64,000 bases of DNA from Candidatus Reidiella endopervernicosa (GTDB lineage: Bacteria; Pseudomonadota; Gammaproteobacteria; GCF-013343005): NCBI RefSeq assembly GCF_013343005.1, contig NZ_CP054491.1, forward strand, positions 2,462,501 to 2,526,500, written 5' to 3'. Numbering within the stretch: position 1 is the stretch's first letter; every line of letters starts with the position of its first letter. Made by a program: the position numbers and the translations under genes. The notes under the pieces were generated by a model. That model saw only the letters and a list, made by a program, of their open reading frames with translations. It was not told where the DNA came from and searched no databases. Below, piece by piece: positions 1,498 through 59,902 of the stretch.

Positions 1498-1932
1498 TCA
1501 ACATCCAGTCCAAAATTAGATCGTTTGCCATTCTAACAGCCTGTTTAGTGGCAATTTAGAGTGAGTAACGACATGTCGCTTAAAGCCAACCCCGCTGACC
1601 GCCATGGAGAGCGAAGTGAGGGCGGTTAGTCCCCGATAGTCGACGCCGTCTGCCTATTCGTAGTTGAGAGCGCGAGCGAACGACGAAGAAGATGCAGCAG
1701 CGGCTTTATGTCGGCGTAGAGTCACTGAGGGAGTTGTGTAGAGCCGCGAAGAGGTGATTACGCAACGTACGCAGGACGGTCGGGGCGCCGCAGGCATAAA
1801 CGGTCGCGTGAAGTATTTGCCGCTTGCTTGGGCTTGGATGCCCAAAACAAACTTTCGCAAAATAGCGACTCCCGGATTTTCATTCATAATGTCTAGGTTT
1901 TGTTATCACCTATTTGTAAGGGACTCCTCCAG
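1498..1932. other. Intergenic region holding repeat copy 1
   Basis: 435 bp between the tadA start and the permease-fusion start. It is mostly occupied by repeat copy 1 (1593-1873). The rest holds only short AT-rich flanks; the ATG at 1933 is preceded by GGGACTCCTCC, a weak ribosome-binding site. I see no gene here: the overlapping open frames are the spurious frames carried by every copy of the repeat. Confidence 0.6.
1593..1873 (-). repeat. ~280-bp interspersed repeat, copy 1
   Basis: Read on the minus strand this begins GGGAGTCGCTATTTTGCG and ends CCATGGCGGTCAGCG, like the other five copies. It contains a 5' hairpin (TGGGC-atccaa-GCCCA), a central region bounded by GCGGCT and AGCCGC, and a 3' hairpin ACCGCC...GGCGGT. 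It is the only copy in this orientation. It carries the GCGTACGTTGCG variant shared with copies 2 and 3. It lies directly behind the tadA start. Confidence 0.93.
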
Positions 1933-16124: not shown

Positions 16125-16454
16125 ACTGCGCGCTCTCTGCAATGCGGTTAAAGCGCAGCAGTATACATTAGGGCAACACGCTCTCACCAACTCCAGGAGC
16201 AATCTCAGCTGTGGCATCGTGATTCAACCAAAGGAAGGAGCTAATTCTTTTACATTTATAAACAACAAGTTAACAACACACACCCATACCAGAGGTCACA
16301 GCCTTTGATTATTAGCAAGACTAATCACCCGCTGGTCGAATTAACATATCAATGCGCTCCCCGTTGACTGCTCCAGCTTTCTAAGACGAGCGATTAGATC
16401 GTCAGTTAACACATGGCCTCTTGAAAGCAGCAAGACCTTGTCATTAATAAACTG

Positions 16455-16735
16455 GGGAGTCGCTATTTTTGCGAAAGTTTGTTTGGGCATCCAAGCCCAA
16501 GCAAACAGCAAAAACTTAACGCGACCGTTTATGCCTACGGCGCCCCGACCGTCCTGCGTACGTTGCGTAATCACCTCTTCGCGGCTCTACACAACTCCCT
16601 CAGTGACTCTACGCCGACATAAAGCCGCTGCTGCATTTCTTTCGTCGTCCGCTCGCGCTCTCAACTACGAATAGGCAGACGGCGTCGACTATCGGGGACT
16701 AACCGCCCTCACTTCGCTCTCCATGGCGGTCAGCG
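16455..16735 (+). repeat. ~280-bp interspersed repeat, copy 2
   Basis: 281 bp, starting GGGAGTCGCTATTTTTGCG and ending CATGGCGGTCAGCG. It lies inside the 3' end of the REC-HD-GYP gene, oriented opposite to that gene. Read on the gene's strand, the flanks would encode A-S-D before it and F-I-N-D-K after it, nearly continuous. It carries the GCGTACGTTGCG variant and one fewer T in the GTTTG-TTT-GGGC run. Confidence 0.94.
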
Positions 16736-16924
16736 GAGGTCACTGGCGAGACCATGCCGCTATTACACTCACTGGGGTTAGCTTCAGGAAGGTCGCGCTA
16801 TCTTCCTCCTCAACTCGCTTATCAAGCAGCCCCTGCATATCGAGCCAAAGGTCGACTATCTCGGGAGCGTAGAGTTTTCCCCGCCACGGGTGATGTACTC
16901 ACGCGCCTCAGCTGCGGAGAGTCC

Positions 16925-17204
16925 GGGAGTCGCTATTTTTGCGAAAGTTTGTTTTGGGCATCCAAGCCCAAGCAAACAGCAAAACTTCACGCGACCGTTT
17001 ATGCCTGCGGCGCCCGACCGTCCTGCGTACGTTGCGTAATCACCTCTTCGCGGCTCTACACAACTCCCTCAGTGACTCTACGCCGACATAAAGCCGCTAC
17101 TGCATCTTCTTCGTCGTTCGCTCGCGCTCTCAACTACGAATAGGCAGACGGCGTCGACTATCGGGGACTAACCGCCCTCACTTCGCTCTCCATGGCGGTC
17201 AGCG
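16925..17204 (+). repeat. ~280-bp interspersed repeat, copy 3
   Basis: 280 bp in the same orientation as copy 2, 189 bp further on, also inside the HD-GYP coding region. The flanks contain GAGAGTC on the left and GAGTCGAGAG on the right, a possible but imperfect target duplication. It is nearly identical to copy 1 (GCGTACGTTGCG, TTCACGCGACCG, CCTGCGGCG). Confidence 0.94.
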
Positions 17205-26892: not shown

Positions 26893-27306
26893 CGGGCTAT
26901 CACTAGCCGAAATCTGACGTTAAGAACTGTTCTTGTTATTAACAATCTCGCCACAGCTGTTGTAGCGAATACCCGACACAATTAATAATATATTTACAAC
27001 GACTTATACCACTAAATTAATGTGCACTCTTACCACTATTTTTTGTGTAGTTTTATTGACTACAGCCTTGTAGGTGTAACGACCACGCCTACTAGAGAGA
27101 CAAGCTGACAAGGGTCATCAAAGCGCATCGTATTGGTGCACCCAGAGAACACGGGACGAAACAGACAAATCCTTATCTCAAACCAGTTCTCGTAACGGTT
27201 CTAAGCCACTGTTATTGGTGTAGTATAAGCGTCTAAACTTGCTTCACCCGCTACGCTTACAGGCAATGGAATGCACCAGACAGAACGACATAGGCCGAGT
27301 TGCAGC
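26893..27306. other. Intergenic region between divergent signalling genes
   Basis: About 410 bp, AT-rich between 26920 and 27060, separating the minus-strand signalling run from a plus-strand receptor gene. It should hold both promoters. A small inverted repeat AAGAACTGTTCTT lies near 26920. No gene, RNA or longer palindrome recognised. Confidence 0.5.
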
Positions 27307-30291
27307 GTGAAATCTTCACTAATCATTCTATTAACCCTCATCACTCTCAGCGCAGCCGCCGAACCACTGCAATTGAGTGATAAGGAGCGCTCCTGGCTCA
27401 ACAACCATCCAGTCATTAGCATCGGCATTGACCCCGATTGGGCACCCTTTGAATACCGTGACCAGCGGGGCAACTACAGTGGCATGGCGGCAGATTTTAT
27501 GGCGCTATTACAACAACGACTCGGGGTTAAGATTGAAGCGGCTCGGATAGATAGTTGGTCAGGTGTCATCAAGGCAGCCAAAGATCAGCGCATTGATGGT
27601 CTCGCTGCCGCCATGAAGTCCGAGCAACGCAGCCGTTATCTCAGCTTCACCTCCCCCTACCTCAACTTTCCGATGGTCATCCTGACCCGCGTTGATGCAC
27701 CGTTCCTTGGCGGGATAGATAGCCTGGGAGACATCACCGTCGCGGTGGTCGACGGTTATGTTAGTCATGATTTAATGGAGTCAAACCACCCTGAGCTCCG
27801 TCTCGTCCCCTACAAAACTATTCGTGAAGCACTGGACGCCCTCTCGGTGGGAGAGATCGGAGCCTTTATCGGCAATCTCGCCTCGGCTAGTTACGCTATC
27901 AATCAGCTTGGCCTCACCAATCTCAAAGTAGCTGCCCACACACCCTACGAATTTGAGCTTGGCATCGGTGTCCGAAAGGATTGGCCAGAACTGCGTTCCA
28001 TTCTGGAGAAGGGTCTAGCGAGCATTAACGAAGAGGAACGCAAAACAATTATGCGACGCTGGATTCAGCTACAGGTTGATAAAGGCTTCAATCTGCACGA
28101 GATCCTGATCGTCGCAATACCCATAGGTTCTGGCATCTTTGTGATTTTACTTGTGGTCGTAATCTGGAACCGACGTCTACAGAAAGAGATCATTGATCGT
28201 CAACAGGTTGAAAAGCAACTACGTGAAAGCGAAGAGCAGCTTCTAAGCTCCCAGGCTATTGCTCACATTGGCACATGGGATGTTGACCTCTCTTCAATGA
28301 CAATGCGTTGGAGCGATGAGTGCTTTGCCATACACGGTACATCCGCTGACGCATACCTACCGGCCTTCGGTACATACAGGGAATTTGTCGTCGATGAAGA
28401 TCGCGAACTCTTCATGCTCCGAACAGCAGCGGTGATGAAAGGAGAAAAACATGAGGATTCGATCGAATATCGAATCAAACGTCCCGATGGAACAATTCGT
28501 CTGCTCAAGGCCTATGGCCAGCTTTTCCTTAATGAGAATAAACAACCGCACCGTTTTATCGGTGTGGTACATGACATCACCGATATTAAGATGACCGAGC
28601 AGGCGCTGCGCGACAAATCTCAAACCTTGCAGTCGATACTCGACAACGCACCGATCGGTATCTGGTATCAAAACCGTGACGGCCATCCGCTGTTTGTAAA
28701 CCAGGACTTTTGTAATGCCCTTGGCGTTCCTGAGTCGAAATTTCTTTCCGCCAACCACTACAGCGCGCTGTTTGATGATGAGGTAATGCAACACAGCATC
28801 ATCACCGATGCAGAGGCGTTATCGCTGCCTGGGCCTCACAGTTCGAGTGAAAAGATAAAATTCCGTGATGGTGAACTTCACGACCTGGAACTCACCAAGA
28901 TTCGCACCACTGACGAAAAAAACAACGTCACCGGATTGATCGGTCTGAGCATCGATGTCACCGAAAAACGCAAAAACGAGGCACTTCTTCGCAAGCAGGC
29001 CTACTTCGATGAGCTAACCGGGCTGCCGAACCGTACTCAACTGATGCAGCAGCTCAACAAGTCACTTTCACAGGCGCGTCGTCACGATGTTTATTCAGCC
29101 CTGCTCTTCTTTGACCTCGACAATTTCAAGATCATTAACGATTCACTCGGTCACCACGCCGGTGACGAATTACTGATCGAAATCGGTGAGCGACTGAAAA
29201 ATATCGTGCGTGAGGAGGATACCGTCGCCCGCCTCGGTGGTGATGAGTTTGTCATTATCGCCAGCGAGCTGGAGCGCGATCCTCAGGTCTCTGCTGATCA
29301 GGCGCAACAGGTGGCCCTCAAAGTCCAGGAAATTCTGCAGCAGCCCTTTATGCTCAGCGAGCACGAACACCATCTCACCTTCAGTATTGGTATCAGCATG
29401 TTTCCGATCGAAAACGAGGATATCAACGACATCCTCAAGCATGCAGATACCGCTATGTACCGCGCCAAAGAGCTGGGTAAAAACCGTATCAGCTTCTTCC
29501 TGCCCAGTATGCAGCAGGCTGCTGAAGAGCGTCTCTACCTACAGAATCAACTTCGACAGGCAAGTATCAAGAATCAGCTGAGCTGGTATATCAACCTCAG
29601 TTCAACGTTGACCACCAACTAATCGGTGCCGAGAGCCTGCTGCGCTGGAATCACCCTGAGATGGGGGGGCATCTCTCCCGCTCGATTTATCCCGCTCGCT
29701 GAGGAGTCGGGACTAATTATCGATATCGGGATTTGGGTACTTCGTGAGGCGTGTTGCAGACTCAAACAGTGGAACATCGATGGCATTCGGCTGCCAATGG
29801 TGTCGGTCAACGTCAGTCCACGCCAGTTCCACCAGAGTGATTTTGTCGACCAGATCAAGTCAATCATCAAAGAGAGCGAGATCGATCCACGCCTGTTGGA
29901 GCTGGAGCTCACTGAAGGAATACTGGTCGAGAATGCCACCGAGGTCTCGGCGAAGATGCAGACACTCAAGCGTATGGGCGTACGCTTTGCCATCGATGAC
30001 TTCGGCACCGGCTACTCCTCACTGGCCTACCTCAAACGGATGCCTCTAGACCGGCTTAAGATCGACCAATCCTTTGTACGTGATATCACTACTGACACCA
30101 GCGATGCTCTGATCGTCGAGACCATTATCTCCATGGCGAGTCATCTCGAATTAGAGGTTATCGCGGAGGGGGTAGAGTACGAAAATGAGTTAAATTTCCT
30201 GCGTGACAAGGGGTGTCTCAACTATCAGGGCTACTACTTCAGCAAGCCCCTCTCTCGCGCTGACTTTGATCAGCTACTCAATGAGAGCTAA
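27307..30291 (+). CDS. Periplasmic binding domain-PAS-GGDEF-EAL receptor
   Basis: The GTG at 27307 gives a signal-peptide-like start (K-S-S-L-I-I-L-L-T-L-I-T-L-S-A-A-A-E-P); an ATG 36 bases upstream is the alternative. An SBP_bac_3 domain (about 20-260; D-P-D-W-A-P-F-E-Y, Y-S-G-M-A-A-D-F) is followed by a membrane helix (I-V-A-I-P-I-G-S-G-I-F-V-I-L-L), two PAS/PAC units, a GGDEF domain (R-L-G-G-D-E-F, preceded by the R-E-E-D inhibitory site) and an EAL domain. Two opposite homopolymer errors, a lost G near 29580 and an extra G in the G7 run near 29665, split the EAL part; correcting both gives 994 residues. The EAL signature is E-S-L-L-R-W; the other motifs (E-L-T-E-G, D-D-F-G-T-G, A-E-G-V-E) are intact. 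Probably converts an amino acid or other small-ligand signal into c-di-GMP change. Confidence 0.88.
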
Positions 30292-50570: not shown

Positions 50571-53537
50571 ATGGGAAAACTGCTTTTTAAAATCAAAGGC
50601 TGGGCCTGGATCCTCACTGCGGTGTGGTCGGTCGTTATACTCGTCAGCTACTTCTGGAACTCCCATCAGGTTCAATCCCTACTGCTCGATCAGGCCCGCA
50701 CTGAACTACGTGCCAACTTCTTTAAGGATCAGACCTTCCGTCTCTGGGCCACAAAACACGGTGGCGTCTACGTTCCAGTCACCGAGACACAGAAACCCGA
50801 CCCCTACGTCGAGTTCCTGCCTGAGCGTGATATTGTCACCTCCTCTGGAAAGACCCTCACCCTGATAAATCCCGCCCTGATGGTGCGCCAGTTCAATGAA
50901 CTGGCCAAATCCAAGTTCGGAGCCGAGGGACATATCAGTGGAATCAAACCACTCAATCCAATCAATACCGCTGATGAGTGGGAATTCAAGTCTTTCGATA
51001 TGTTCAAGCGTGGCGCTAAGGAGTTCACTGAAGTCACCAGCATGAACAACGAACCCTACCTACGACTGATTCGTCCCATGCATATGGCGGCCCCCTGCCT
51101 CAAGTGTCACGCCCAACAGGGATTTACGGTCGGCGATCTGGCCGGCGGTGTTAGTGTCTCGGTTCCATTGACCCCCATTGAACGCCTCAGAGAGATGCGC
51201 ATGATCACTCTGGGTGCGGGTCACACATTCATCTGGGTACTGGGTCTAACCGGCATCGGCATCGCCAGACGACAAATCATCACACGGGTGGAAGAACGCG
51301 AGCAGATATTTGATTCACTACAGGAGAATGAGGCACGAACCCGTGCCATCGTCTCCAGCTCGCTCGATGCAATTATCACCGCCGACGCCAACGGCATCAT
51401 CACCGGCTGGAACGAGCAGGCTTCAACCATCTTTGGCTGGTCCGAACAGGATACACTGGGCGAGGTACTCTCCAATCTGATCGTACCCGAACGGCTGCGA
51501 GAGGCTCACAACCACGGATTACAGAGAGCCGCAGCAAGCAGCCAGGTACATGAACTCAACCGTCGTGTTGAGGTGGTTGGACTCAACCGCGATGGGCAGG
51601 AGTTTCCCGTCGAACTCTCCATCACCACCTTCTATATCGATGGTGAGATCGCCTTTACTGCCTTTATTCGCGACATCTCGGACCGCAAGGCGGCTGAGGA
51701 GAAGATCGAACGCGACTACGCATCGCAACAACTAATTGCTTCAGTGCTGGAAACCTCCCTTCAACCCGCCCCCTTTGAGCAACGCCTAGAACAGATTTTA
51801 CATCAGCTTCTGGCCACCTCCTGGTTAAACCTGCAGGGCAAGGGGGCGGTTTATCTCGTTAATGACAGTGGCGACACACTGGAGATGGCAACCCAGTCCG
51901 GCATGCCTGCCAAGACTGTCGAGAAGTGTGCTACCGTTCCTCTCGGAGTCTGTCTTTGTGGTCAGGCTGCCGCCACTGGCGAGGTCATCTACAAGGCGTG
52001 CGTCGATGATGACCATCACCGGATCGACTCCGGCTCAGAACAGCATGGTCACTACTGCCTGCCGATCAAGAGTAGTGACCGACTGCTCGGCATACTCACC
52101 CTCTACCTCGATCACGACCATCAGCGAAGTGAGGAGGAGATCCAGCTGCTCTCAACCATCAGCCACACCATCGGAGGCATGATTCAACGTAATGAGGCCG
52201 AACAGAGCCTGCTGCACAACGCCTACCACGACGACCTGACGGGGCTACCCAATCGGTTACTCTTCATGGATCGCCTTGCGCAGGCGATGGCTCGCCATGA
52301 ACGCAATCAAGACTACAAATTTGCCGTACTGTTTCTCGATCTCGATCGTTTTAAGGTGATCAACGACAGCCTGGGTCATAGCTTCGGTGACAAACTTTTG
52401 GTCAAGGTAGCCAAACGCCTTGAGAGCTGTAGCCGACCAACTGACACCGTTGCACGCCTCGGTGGCGATGAGTTCACCATGCTAATCGAAGGTCCTGAAT
52501 CGGAACTCGATATCTCACGTGTCACCAGTCGCATCCACTCCGAACTGCGCAATCCCATCGATCTGATTGGTCACGAGATCTTTGCCCCCTGTAGTATCGG
52601 TATCGCCTTTGGCAACAGCGACTATAAAGAACCAGAGGAGATCCTTCGAGACGCCGACACCGCGATGTATCGTGCCAAATCGGAGAGCAGCATTCAGACC
52701 GTCTTCTTCGATGAGGCGATGCACACCTCTGCCCTCTCCCGCCTCACCATGGAGACCGACCTGCGCCGCGCCTTCGAGAACCAGGAGCTCTCGGTCCACT
52801 ATCAACCCATTGTCGCCGCAGCCACCGGAGAGATCGAGGGCTTCGAAGCACTGGCACGTTGGCAACGCAGTGATGGCAGCATGGTCTCACCGGTTGAGTT
52901 CATACCAGTGGCTGAGGAGACAGGGCTGATCAACGAACTGGGTATGTGGGTACTGCATCAGGCCTGTAAACACACCAAACAGTGGCGCGAAGCACACCCG
53001 AAATTCAAAGACCTCTACATCAGCGTCAATCTCTCCGGCAAACAGCTTCTTCAGGCCGATCTGTTTAACTGCATTGAGACGATCTTGTTGGGTGTCGGCT
53101 TCGATCCAAGCTGCCTGAGACTGGAGATAACCGAAAGCACCCTGATGGCCGACACCACCGCCAATAACAATCTGCTGACCAAGTTCCGTGACCGTGGATA
53201 TCGCTTCTATATCGATGATTTCGGCACCGGTTACTCATCACTCAGCTATCTGCACAGCTTCCCCTTTGAGGCGCTCAAGATCGACCGCTCCTTTGTGCTC
53301 AATCTCGATCAGGGCAGTGAGCATATCGACATGGTGGAGACCATCGTCGCCATCGCACACAACTTTGGTATGGAGGTAATTGCCGAGGGGGTCGAGACCG
53401 AGGCACACCTCAAACAGCTACGAGATCTCGGTTGTGAACGCCTGCAGGGTTATCTCTTCTCTCGTCCACTGCCGCCCGAAGCAGTTTCAGAGCTACTGGC
53501 CAATCCGGAAAAGATTGCCATTAAGCAAACCGATTAA
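50571..53537 (+). CDS. Haem-c-binding (DUF3365)-PAS-GAF-GGDEF-EAL protein
   Basis: 988 residues in one intact frame. An N-terminal membrane helix precedes a DUF3365/Tll0287-like sensor domain (about 35-205) with the haem c motif C-L-K-C-H-A near residue 176. A second helix (I-T-L-G-A-G-H-T-F-I-W-V-L-G-L) is followed by PAS (about 258-375), GAF (about 395-545), GGDEF (about 555-715) and EAL (about 730-980). The cyclase has R-L-G-G-D-E-F preceded by the R-P-T-D inhibitory site. The phosphodiesterase has F-E-A-L-A-R-W, E-I-T-E-S, D-D-F-G-T-G, K-I-D-R-S-F and A-E-G-V-E. It probably senses redox state or a gas at a periplasmic haem and adjusts c-di-GMP. It sits directly after fccAB. Confidence 0.9.
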   Translation: MGKLLFKIKGWAWILTAVWSVVILVSYFWNSHQVQSLLLDQARTELRANFFKDQTFRLWATKHGGVYVPVTETQKPDPYVEFLPERDIVTSSGKTLTLINPALMVRQFNELAKSKFGAEGHISGIKPLNPINTADEWEFKSFDMFKRGAKEFTEVTSMNNEPYLRLIRPMHMAAPCLKCHAQQGFTVGDLAGGVSVSVPLTPIERLREMRMITLGAGHTFIWVLGLTGIGIARRQIITRVEEREQIFDSLQENEARTRAIVSSSLDAIITADANGIITGWNEQASTIFGWSEQDTLGEVLSNLIVPERLREAHNHGLQRAAASSQVHELNRRVEVVGLNRDGQEFPVELSITTFYIDGEIAFTAFIRDISDRKAAEEKIERDYASQQLIASVLETSLQPAPFEQRLEQILHQLLATSWLNLQGKGAVYLVNDSGDTLEMATQSGMPAKTVEKCATVPLGVCLCGQAAATGEVIYKACVDDDHHRIDSGSEQHGHYCLPIKSSDRLLGILTLYLDHDHQRSEEEIQLLSTISHTIGGMIQRNEAEQSLLHNAYHDDLTGLPNRLLFMDRLAQAMARHERNQDYKFAVLFLDLDRFKVINDSLGHSFGDKLLVKVAKRLESCSRPTDTVARLGGDEFTMLIEGPESELDISRVTSRIHSELRNPIDLIGHEIFAPCSIGIAFGNSDYKEPEEILRDADTAMYRAKSESSIQTVFFDEAMHTSALSRLTMETDLRRAFENQELSVHYQPIVAAATGEIEGFEALARWQRSDGSMVSPVEFIPVAEETGLINELGMWVLHQACKHTKQWREAHPKFKDLYISVNLSGKQLLQADLFNCIETILLGVGFDPSCLRLEITESTLMADTTANNNLLTKFRDRGYRFYIDDFGTGYSSLSYLHSFPFEALKIDRSFVLNLDQGSEHIDMVETIVAIAHNFGMEVIAEGVETEAHLKQLRDLGCERLQGYLFSRPLPPEAVSELLANPEKIAIKQTD

Positions 53538-58092: not shown

Positions 58093-58359
58093 TCTAAAGA
58101 AAGGCAACAGGTGACAGGCTAGATGCAAAACTCAAGATCTGATCCCGTGCTTTCCCAGAGGCTTTGTTGTTTATGGCCTCCAAGAGGCAGACTCCACTCT
58201 CAAACTTGCAAACACCCACATCACTGGGTAATTTCCACATAACCCTGCCAGCCTTAAGGGATGAGACCCAATTGAATGGATGCAGCAAACCACCACTTCG
58301 TACTTTGGCCGAATATCACAATAAATGTGCAGATCACATAATCATCTGTTAGCTTTTCC
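58093..58359. other. Gene-free stretch between the FKBP gene and repeat copy 4
   Basis: About 270 bp with only short unconvincing frames on both strands. Composition shifts here from the GC-rich housekeeping run to an AT-rich accessory patch. Confidence 0.4.
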
Positions 58360-58639
58360 GGGAGTCGCTATTTTTGCGAAAGTTTGTTTTGGACATCCAA
58401 GCCCAAGCAAACAGCAAAACTTCACGCGACCGTTTATGCCTGCGGCGCCCCGACGTCCTGCGTTCGTTGCGTAATCACCTCTTCGCGGCTCTACACAACT
58501 CCCTCAGTGACTCTACGCCGACATAAAGCCGCTGCTGCATCTTCTCCGTCGTTCGCTCGCGCTCTCAACTACGAATAGGCAGACGGCGTCGACTATCGGG
58601 GACTAACCGCCCTCACTTCGCTCTCCATGGCGGTCAGCG
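58360..58639 (+). repeat. ~280-bp interspersed repeat, copy 4
   Basis: 280 bp from GGGAGTCGCTATTTTTGCG to GGCGGTCAGCG. It carries GCGTTCGTTGCG (shared with copies 5 and 6, not 1-3) and a G-to-A change in the 5' hairpin (GGACATCC). The AAGGAGAG that serves as ribosome-binding site of the membrane-protein gene at 58651 begins at its last bases, so an insertion here abuts that gene's start. Confidence 0.94.
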
Positions 58640-59047: not shown

Positions 59048-59053
59048 CCGTCG

Positions 59054-59333
59054 GGGAGTCGCTATTTTGCGAAAGTTTGTTTTGGGCATCCAAGCCCAAG
59101 CAAACAGCAAAAACTTAACGCGACCATTTATGCCTACGGCGCCCCGACGTCCTGCGTTCGTTGCGTAATCACCTCTTCGCGGCTCTACACAACTCCCTCA
59201 GTGACTCTACGCCGACATAAAGCCGCTGCTGCATCTTCTTCGTCGTTCGCTCGCGCTCTCAACTACGAATATGCAGACGGCGTCGACTATCGCGGACTAA
59301 CCGCCTTCGCTTCGCTATCCATGGCGGTCAGCG
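59054..59333 (+). repeat. ~280-bp interspersed repeat, copy 5
   Basis: 280 bp, GGGAGTCGCTATTTTGCG to GGCGGTCAGCG, inside the membrane-protein gene. It carries GCGTTCGTTGCG like copies 4 and 6, and shares CGCCTTCGCTTCGCTATCC near its 3' end only with copy 6. It has its own variants (GACCATTTATG; TATCGCGGAC). Confidence 0.94.
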
Positions 59334-59338: not shown

Positions 59339-59636
59339 ATATTGTGGCTATCTGTATTGGGCTTAATCTTTGCAGTGGCGGTTTCGTCCTATATGGCTAA
59401 TCCACTTAATAATATTGTTTCAAATTGGATTACACCTCTTTTGGTATTGTCGCAAGTGCAACGCTGCCTATTTTCTTTACCGAGATAACCTCCGATATAG
59501 TCAAAACAGGACTCGAAAATTTCAGGGTTGGTGGGAGTGTTCAAGCTTCAGTTCATAAAGTAGACAATGGGAAGTAATAAAATCCGAAAGCTTCTTTTGC
59601 TTACTCCGCAATATGCTTACCTACGAGAGGATGTCG

Positions 59637-59902
59637 GGGAGTCGCTATTTTTGCGGAAGCATGTTTTGGGCATCCAAGCCCAAGCAAGCGGCAAATACTT
59701 AACGCGACCGTTTATGCCTACGGCGCCCCGACTCGTCTGCGTTCGTTGCGTAATCACCTCTTCGCGGCTCTACACAACTTCCTCACTGACTCTACGCCGA
59801 CATCTTCTTCGTCGTTCGCTCGCGCTCTCAACTACGAATAGGCAGACGGCGTCGACTATCGGGGACTAACCGCCTTCGCTTCGCTATCCATGGCGGTCAG
59901 CG
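59637..59902 (+). repeat. ~280-bp interspersed repeat, copy 6 (internally deleted)
   Basis: 266 bp. It is the most divergent copy (GCGGAAGCATGTTTT at the 5' end; GACTCGTCTGCG). It lacks 16 bp (ATAAAGCCGCTGCTGC) in the middle, removing one arm of the central inverted repeat. 16 is not a multiple of three, which speaks against a conserved peptide. It lies 59 bp after the end of the broken membrane-protein gene. Confidence 0.93.

Follow-up and report, generated by a model that had tools for sequence, protein, structure and literature searches.

The genome of Candidatus Reidiella endopervernicosa (the source genome; 3.45 Mb in a single contig) carries a 284-bp element without a gene of its own in about 358 copies, amounting to about 3% of the chromosome. 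Our data showed that this element has been mobile recently, that it inserts precisely and without target duplication, that its right flank reads NNNG and that its orientation is linked to replication. With confidence slightly above even, we consider it a non-autonomous transposon that an HUH enzyme mobilises in trans, in the form of single-stranded DNA. No description of the element was found in the open-access literature or in the Rfam release used, and within these the family appears to be undescribed.

The window, meaning the whole analysed stretch of 64,000 nucleotides, holds six copies (Table 1). A sequence-only reading had placed six copies here with common ends and unrelated flanks; all six were present at those positions and aligned over their full length, end to end, between unrelated flanks. 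Its right ends stood, whereas its left ends had been set about 3 bases too short; the true left end was fixed from empty sites in relatives together with the family alignment. Copy 1 was the sole window copy off the NNNG right-flank rule, and copy 3 (16922..17204) served as the query in genome searches. The view that this is a structured mobile element with many genomic copies was borne out by these searches of the genome and its relatives, which returned hundreds of sharp-ended copies, plus related elements in other genera. The copies were spread genome-wide rather than confined to one region, and similarity stopped at the element ends. The window also encodes large GGDEF and GGDEF-EAL sensor proteins of cyclic-di-GMP signalling (27271-29622 and 50571-53537).

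Table 1. Element copies in the window and terminal hairpins of copy 3
Feature	Position	Strand	Details
Element copy 1	1593..1876	(-)	284 bp; right flank GGGT
Element copy 2	16452..16735	(+)	284 bp; right flank GAGG
Element copy 3	16922..17204	(+)	283 bp; right flank GTTG
Element copy 4	58357..58639	(+)	283 bp; right flank AAGG
Element copy 5	59051..59333	(+)	283 bp; right flank AAAG
Element copy 6	59634..59902	(+)	269 bp, internal deletion around AAAGCCGCTGCTG; right flank ATAG
Left-end hairpin, copy 3	16926..16997	(-)	GTCGC...GCGAC outer stem, TTTTGC/GCAAAA, GTTTG/CAAAC, TTGGGC/GCCCAA
Right-end hairpin, copy 3	17161..17204	(-)	bottom strand CTGACCGCC...GGCGGTTAG, 2 nt from insertion point

Across the genome, the 5'-end pattern gave 271 matches versus 1 for its reversed-pattern control and the 3'-end pattern gave 358 versus 2, so that a chance origin of the repeat family was excluded. 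In a sample of 40 evenly spread genome stretches plus the window (864 kb, about a quarter of the genome), the 5' pattern found 57 matches, the 3' pattern 73 and nhmmer 73; the agreement of the last two makes 358 the better copy number. The same 864 kb contained no internal partial copies beside 72 full ones. Private substitutions were absent in 61 of 91 copies in the source genome, indicating that the copies are young and the activity recent. At one locus (L029:1501-2065; genome 781286-781850), two copies followed each other head to tail, their matched stretches being one base apart, a tandem insertion that would be explained by the GGGG left end of the element, which itself satisfies NNNG.

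The insertion rule was read from empty sites, for which the flanks of symbiont copies were joined and then looked for in the fetched sequence. Empty homologues were recovered for 52 elements in Bathymodiolus symbiont genomes, these being paralogous copies of repeated DNA in draft assemblies. The inserted segment was NYGGGGAGTCGC...CAGCG; the target was not duplicated, and nothing was deleted except at one site, where 8 nt were lost at the left junction; a target-duplication signal was likewise absent from 93 copies in the source genome. An empty-site comparison within the source genome gave the same geometry: at L073:11437-11716, a copy lies inside a REP beside an intact RAYT gene, with the bottom-strand junction CAAT^CCGG. 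A G at right-flank position +4 was found in 126 of 126 copies in relatives and in 92% of 91 copies in the source genome; it was the only strong target requirement, and other preferences were weak.

These sites bear on two other readings. A MITE or another passenger of a DDE transposase would be short, non-coding and high in copy number, as is the element, but terminal inverted repeats are missing and about 50 empty sites revealed no target duplication; we regard this origin as so improbable as to be nearly negligible, and the earlier remark that the repeat is not a typical MITE was supported. Alternatively, the element could be a structural or regulatory chromosomal repeat kept by selection and not currently a transposon, comparable to the host roles of BOX, ERIC and REP sequences. 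Its sites show a moderate non-coding bias that would suit such a role, with long open reading frames spanning 36% of the sites once joined, within a range of 36-51%, versus 70% of random sites; insertion is thus biased toward, yet not confined to, non-coding DNA. The precise insertions with empty counterparts, the near-identical copies, the many copies within genes and the presence on plasmids speak against it, leaving it very improbable; as a sole explanation it is contradicted by the empty sites, and secondary host roles are possible. Serine or tyrosine site-specific recombination was rejected because the two junctions have no core in common. In-frame selfish insertion, as with the Rickettsia palindromic elements, was rejected as well, since an open frame runs through only some copies and the lengths are not multiples of 3.

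The Bathymodiolus japonicus symbiont carries two sister families, B and C, with modal lengths of about 261 and 281 bp. Their right two thirds are common with the element described so far (family A), and their left end, CAGGCGCGCCATGCTACC, is unrelated. About 89 copies of B and C were present in the fetched loci (L112, L110, L219 and many other loci of this symbiont), 87 of 89 having G at right +4, and a less strict alignment yielded empty homologues for 33 further elements. Both families insert without extra bases; a random extra base considered at their junction was rejected because it belongs to the target itself. One site, aaacg^gttg, had received both a family A and a family C element. In bottom-strand orientation, the target reads CNNN^, and the element has CCRN (A) or CCTG (B and C) as its 3' end. 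A C at -4 therefore precedes both cuts despite the unrelated left ends of A versus B and C, as expected if one enzyme makes both.

Relatives of the element were located in Methylococcales, the B. japonicus methanotroph symbiont included, in Methylophaga and in Sideroxydans. When 35 further genomes of the class were sampled, a related stretch turned up in only 3. In the left-end scan of named genomes, the matches listed were mostly methanotroph symbionts of Bathymodiolus, together with Methylicorpusculum, Methylomagnum, Methylobacter, Methylomonas, Methylocucumis, Methyloglobulus and Methyloprofundus, one Methylophaga MAG and one Sideroxydans MAG (single copy). Under a stricter pattern, family A left ends numbered 233 in the source genome; the symbionts of B. 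japonicus and B. platifrons had 525 and 101, Methyloprofundus had 37, and each remaining genome had 1-12. Plasmids of Methylobacter and Methylomonas matched the first 90-104 nt of the element. In two different genomes (G015 and G035; loci L061 and L062), one and the same copy sits beside the same efflux-pump genes, an arrangement which suggests that this copy may have travelled within a larger mobile segment.

Both terminal hairpins of the sequence-only reading (5', TGGGC/GCCCA; 3', ACCGCC/GGCGGT) were real, and its central inverted repeat was conserved within the source genome, although the middle of the element differs among lineages. The covariation test it had proposed gave a strong result for the right-end stem and a weak one for the left. 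At the right end, 98.3% of cells were paired in 26 sequences, 5 of 9 pairs had changed on both sides, and the stem occurred in distinct classes (ACCGCC/GGCGGT, AAAATC/GATTTT and CCAGC/GCTGG); the covariation score was reached by 0 of 500 shuffles, and slid controls collapsed. These data showed that the right-end hairpin is under selection. At the left end, 96% of cells were paired, with a bottom-strand DNA fold z of -2.5, and covariation was weak because the stable hairpin varies little. Pair 11-54 of the right hairpin was G-T on the bottom strand in 26 of 26 sequences, which on the top strand is an A-C mismatch. Folding of the whole element with RNA parameters gave a mean z of -2.64 for the bottom strand versus -1.79 for the top, the bottom being lower in 20 of 27; the 280-nt DNA fold of copy 3 alone was unexceptional. 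The invariant G-T pair and the folding energies suggest that it is the bottom strand that folds. The alignments contained no motif common to the 5' sides of both hairpins on the bottom strand, while on the top strand GGGGA precedes each of them. The string GGAG was confined to the left end, where it stands before a 65-nt hairpin, and neither a GTAG nor a CGTC tag was present. The element had no Rfam covariance-model match.

The orientation of the copies was linked to replication. GC skew placed the origin of the source genome at about 0.6 Mb and its terminus at about 2.3 Mb, and copy orientation followed the skew in 58 of 72 cases in the 864 kb sampled (p=1.6e-7). The top strand thus lies on the G-poor strand in these 58, which makes the bottom strand part of the lagging-strand template. 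Transcription does not account for this bias, as the 31 sampled copies that interrupt genes were split 16 to 15 by orientation.

We propose a mechanism in which the element ends would act as recognition sites for an enzyme supplied in trans, the element having no gene of its own. The active strand would be the bottom one, exposed in single-stranded form where it serves as the lagging-strand template. There, an endogenous transposase of the HUH single-strand class, most probably a TnpA/RAYT-like Y1 enzyme, would read both terminal hairpins and cleave each end three bases past a C (5'-CNNN^CGCTGA...hairpin...CCNN^-3'). It would then insert the element at a new CNNN^ site, the target DNA being single-stranded as well, so that the element would behave like a PATE or a REPIN-type passenger of an IS200/IS605-like system. 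Counting against the HUH reading are the failure to find an autonomous copy, the truncated state of the only RAYT gene seen beside a copy in the source genome, the essentially one-base target rule and the lack of a guide-like tetranucleotide shared by the hairpins on the bottom strand.

The left end of family A is not predicted by plain cut-and-join. Its two outermost bases were non-consensus in 20% and 19% of copies, versus 0-1% in the next ten columns. Among 389 pairs of copies with identical 292-nt interiors, the end bases differed in 199 and agreed in 190, a split as expected at random, so that they are uncoupled from the interior haplotypes. No consistent link of the variable bases to target bases was found in family A. 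Because one interior haplotype dominates, these figures demonstrate hypervariability and not strictly a change at every transposition.

The variable bases speak most strongly for a step that involves RNA or end processing. They also fit a bacterial SINE-like retroelement whose structured RNA would be copied by a reverse transcriptase primed at a nick or at a replication fork, in the manner of target-primed reverse transcription. The exact right end would then be the RNA 3' end, and the fuzzy left end would consist of untemplated bases ending cDNA synthesis. Besides the exact right end and flank and the two hypervariable left bases detached from interior haplotypes in family A, the 8-nt deletion at one left junction and the structured nature of the element are in keeping with this account, as is its replication-strand bias, which is also known for group II intron retrotransposition. 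However, the source genome has no RVT_1 gene despite the recent activity seen in 61 of 91 copies, and a reverse transcriptase was present in just 5 of 13 element-bearing genomes. Moreover, 5'-truncated copies were absent beside 72 full ones, families B and C lack extra bases, and the C at -4 of the element's own end would be left unexplained. We therefore judge a retroelement to be rather improbable.

For the favoured HUH reading, the source genome contains three PF01797 (Y1) loci, comprising a truncated RAYT, a frameshifted gene and an intact one (L067), and a second intact RAYT with its own REPs at L073. The intact Y1-type genes (L067 and L073) each appear to have their own REPs. The truncated 137-aa RAYT gene (L066:1453-1866) is the only RAYT coding region in the source genome seen adjoining an element copy (L066:1017-1299), with about 155 bp between that copy and the gene's 3' end; this pairing could be chance or the relic of a cognate pair. 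Y1 genes were present in 12 of 13 element-bearing genomes (the source and 11 of 12 others), a co-occurrence that is weak evidence since Y1 genes are common in Gammaproteobacteria. No autonomous copy with the family ends around a transposase gene was found; Y1 genes were present, none of them so bounded. Matches to the 5' end only were rejected as autonomous copies, since they were truncated, internally deleted or disrupted by an IS110 insertion. A copy in the B. platifrons symbiont (L217:1265-2018) that seemed to contain a Y1 gene was likewise explained by an IS200-type element with a 154-aa Y1 transposase, inserted mid-copy. In a Methylococcaceae MAG (L107:4137-5493), an IS110-family element lies within the left-end hairpin loop of a copy; members of IS110/IS1111 similarly insert into REP palindromes.

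Y2 transposases were found in 4 of the 13 element-bearing genomes and were absent in the other 9, the source genome included, for which reason an IS91/Helitron-like Y2 element was rejected. TnpB had no match in the source genome in a search whose positive controls responded; IscB/RRXRR had none there either, a weaker negative because no control gave a match in that search. An omega-RNA passenger with NNNG as its TAM was rejected on the lack of a TnpB or IscB match in the source genome. On a plasmid of Methylobacter sp. YRD-M1 (L089:3000-4455), a copy is followed after about 55 bp by the start of a TnpB-like gene (371 aa), which looks like mere neighbourhood.

The enzyme could also belong to an unrecognised class, neither Y1 nor reverse transcriptase, that recognises the two hairpins and cleaves single-stranded DNA at CNNN^. 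The intact Y1-type genes appear tied to REPs of their own, and the remaining pair consists of a truncated and a frameshifted gene; in addition, we know of no family that the insertion rule and end heterogeneity fit exactly. Yet nearly all tested features are common with HUH transposition, save the short target motif and the end heterogeneity, and no candidate enzyme of such a class was found. We hold this to be unlikely, though less so than a retroelement.

Comparison with known systems placed the element close to two of them and inside neither. IS608 and ISDra2 target the lagging-strand template and recognise subterminal structures, as described in PMC6006769. The element resembles the IS200/IS605 systems (IS608, ISDra2, PATE) in lacking terminal inverted repeats and target duplications, in its subterminal hairpins, in a lagging-strand-template bias and in being inserted precisely, on one strand, 3' of a short motif (PMC6006769, for IS608 and ISDra2). 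It differs in its target, which is a C at -4 (CNNN^) and not a tetra- or pentanucleotide as in IS608, in that no tnpA with the element's ends was found and no guide precedes both hairpins on the presumed active strand, and in the variable terminal bases of family A. It is also high-copy, non-autonomous and hairpin-based in hosts that carry RAYT genes, as are the REP/REPIN-RAYT systems, in which TnpA-REP may mobilise REPs and cleavage has been reported at CT (or CA) dinucleotides (PMC8266576). Unlike REPs, which are 20-40-bp palindromes, it is a single unit of 260-300 bp with defined ends; it has no GTAG tag and also inserts in genes, and its rule differs from the CT/CA cleavage of TnpA-REP (PMC8266576). 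As its target is not a tetranucleotide and the REP tag is lacking, the element was assigned to neither IS200/IS605 nor REP. MITEs are likewise short, non-coding and high-copy repeats, but the element has neither their terminal inverted repeats nor their target duplications. Group II introns and bacterial retroelements are comparable in being structured, in replication-strand bias and in having one end exact and the other variable; in contrast, the element has no Rfam intron match, no reverse transcriptase in its source genome and no target of the exon-binding type.

A broader interpretation, which we put forward as a tentative possibility, is that these repeats form an undescribed superfamily of gene-less elements, with at least three families that have exchangeable left ends and obey a one-base CNNN^ rule for insertion into single strands exposed by replication. 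They would be moved by an unrecognised enzyme class or an untypical RAYT, and family A would gain its terminal bases at transposition.

The element is among the most abundant repeats of these genomes. Its many empty sites define an unusually clean insertion rule, and the search for its enzyme is directly testable. To our knowledge, the spread of REPs is still poorly understood. If no RAYT moves the element, a new transposition system would be yet to be found; if a RAYT does, the element would provide a concrete substrate and a target rule for RAYT-driven transposition.
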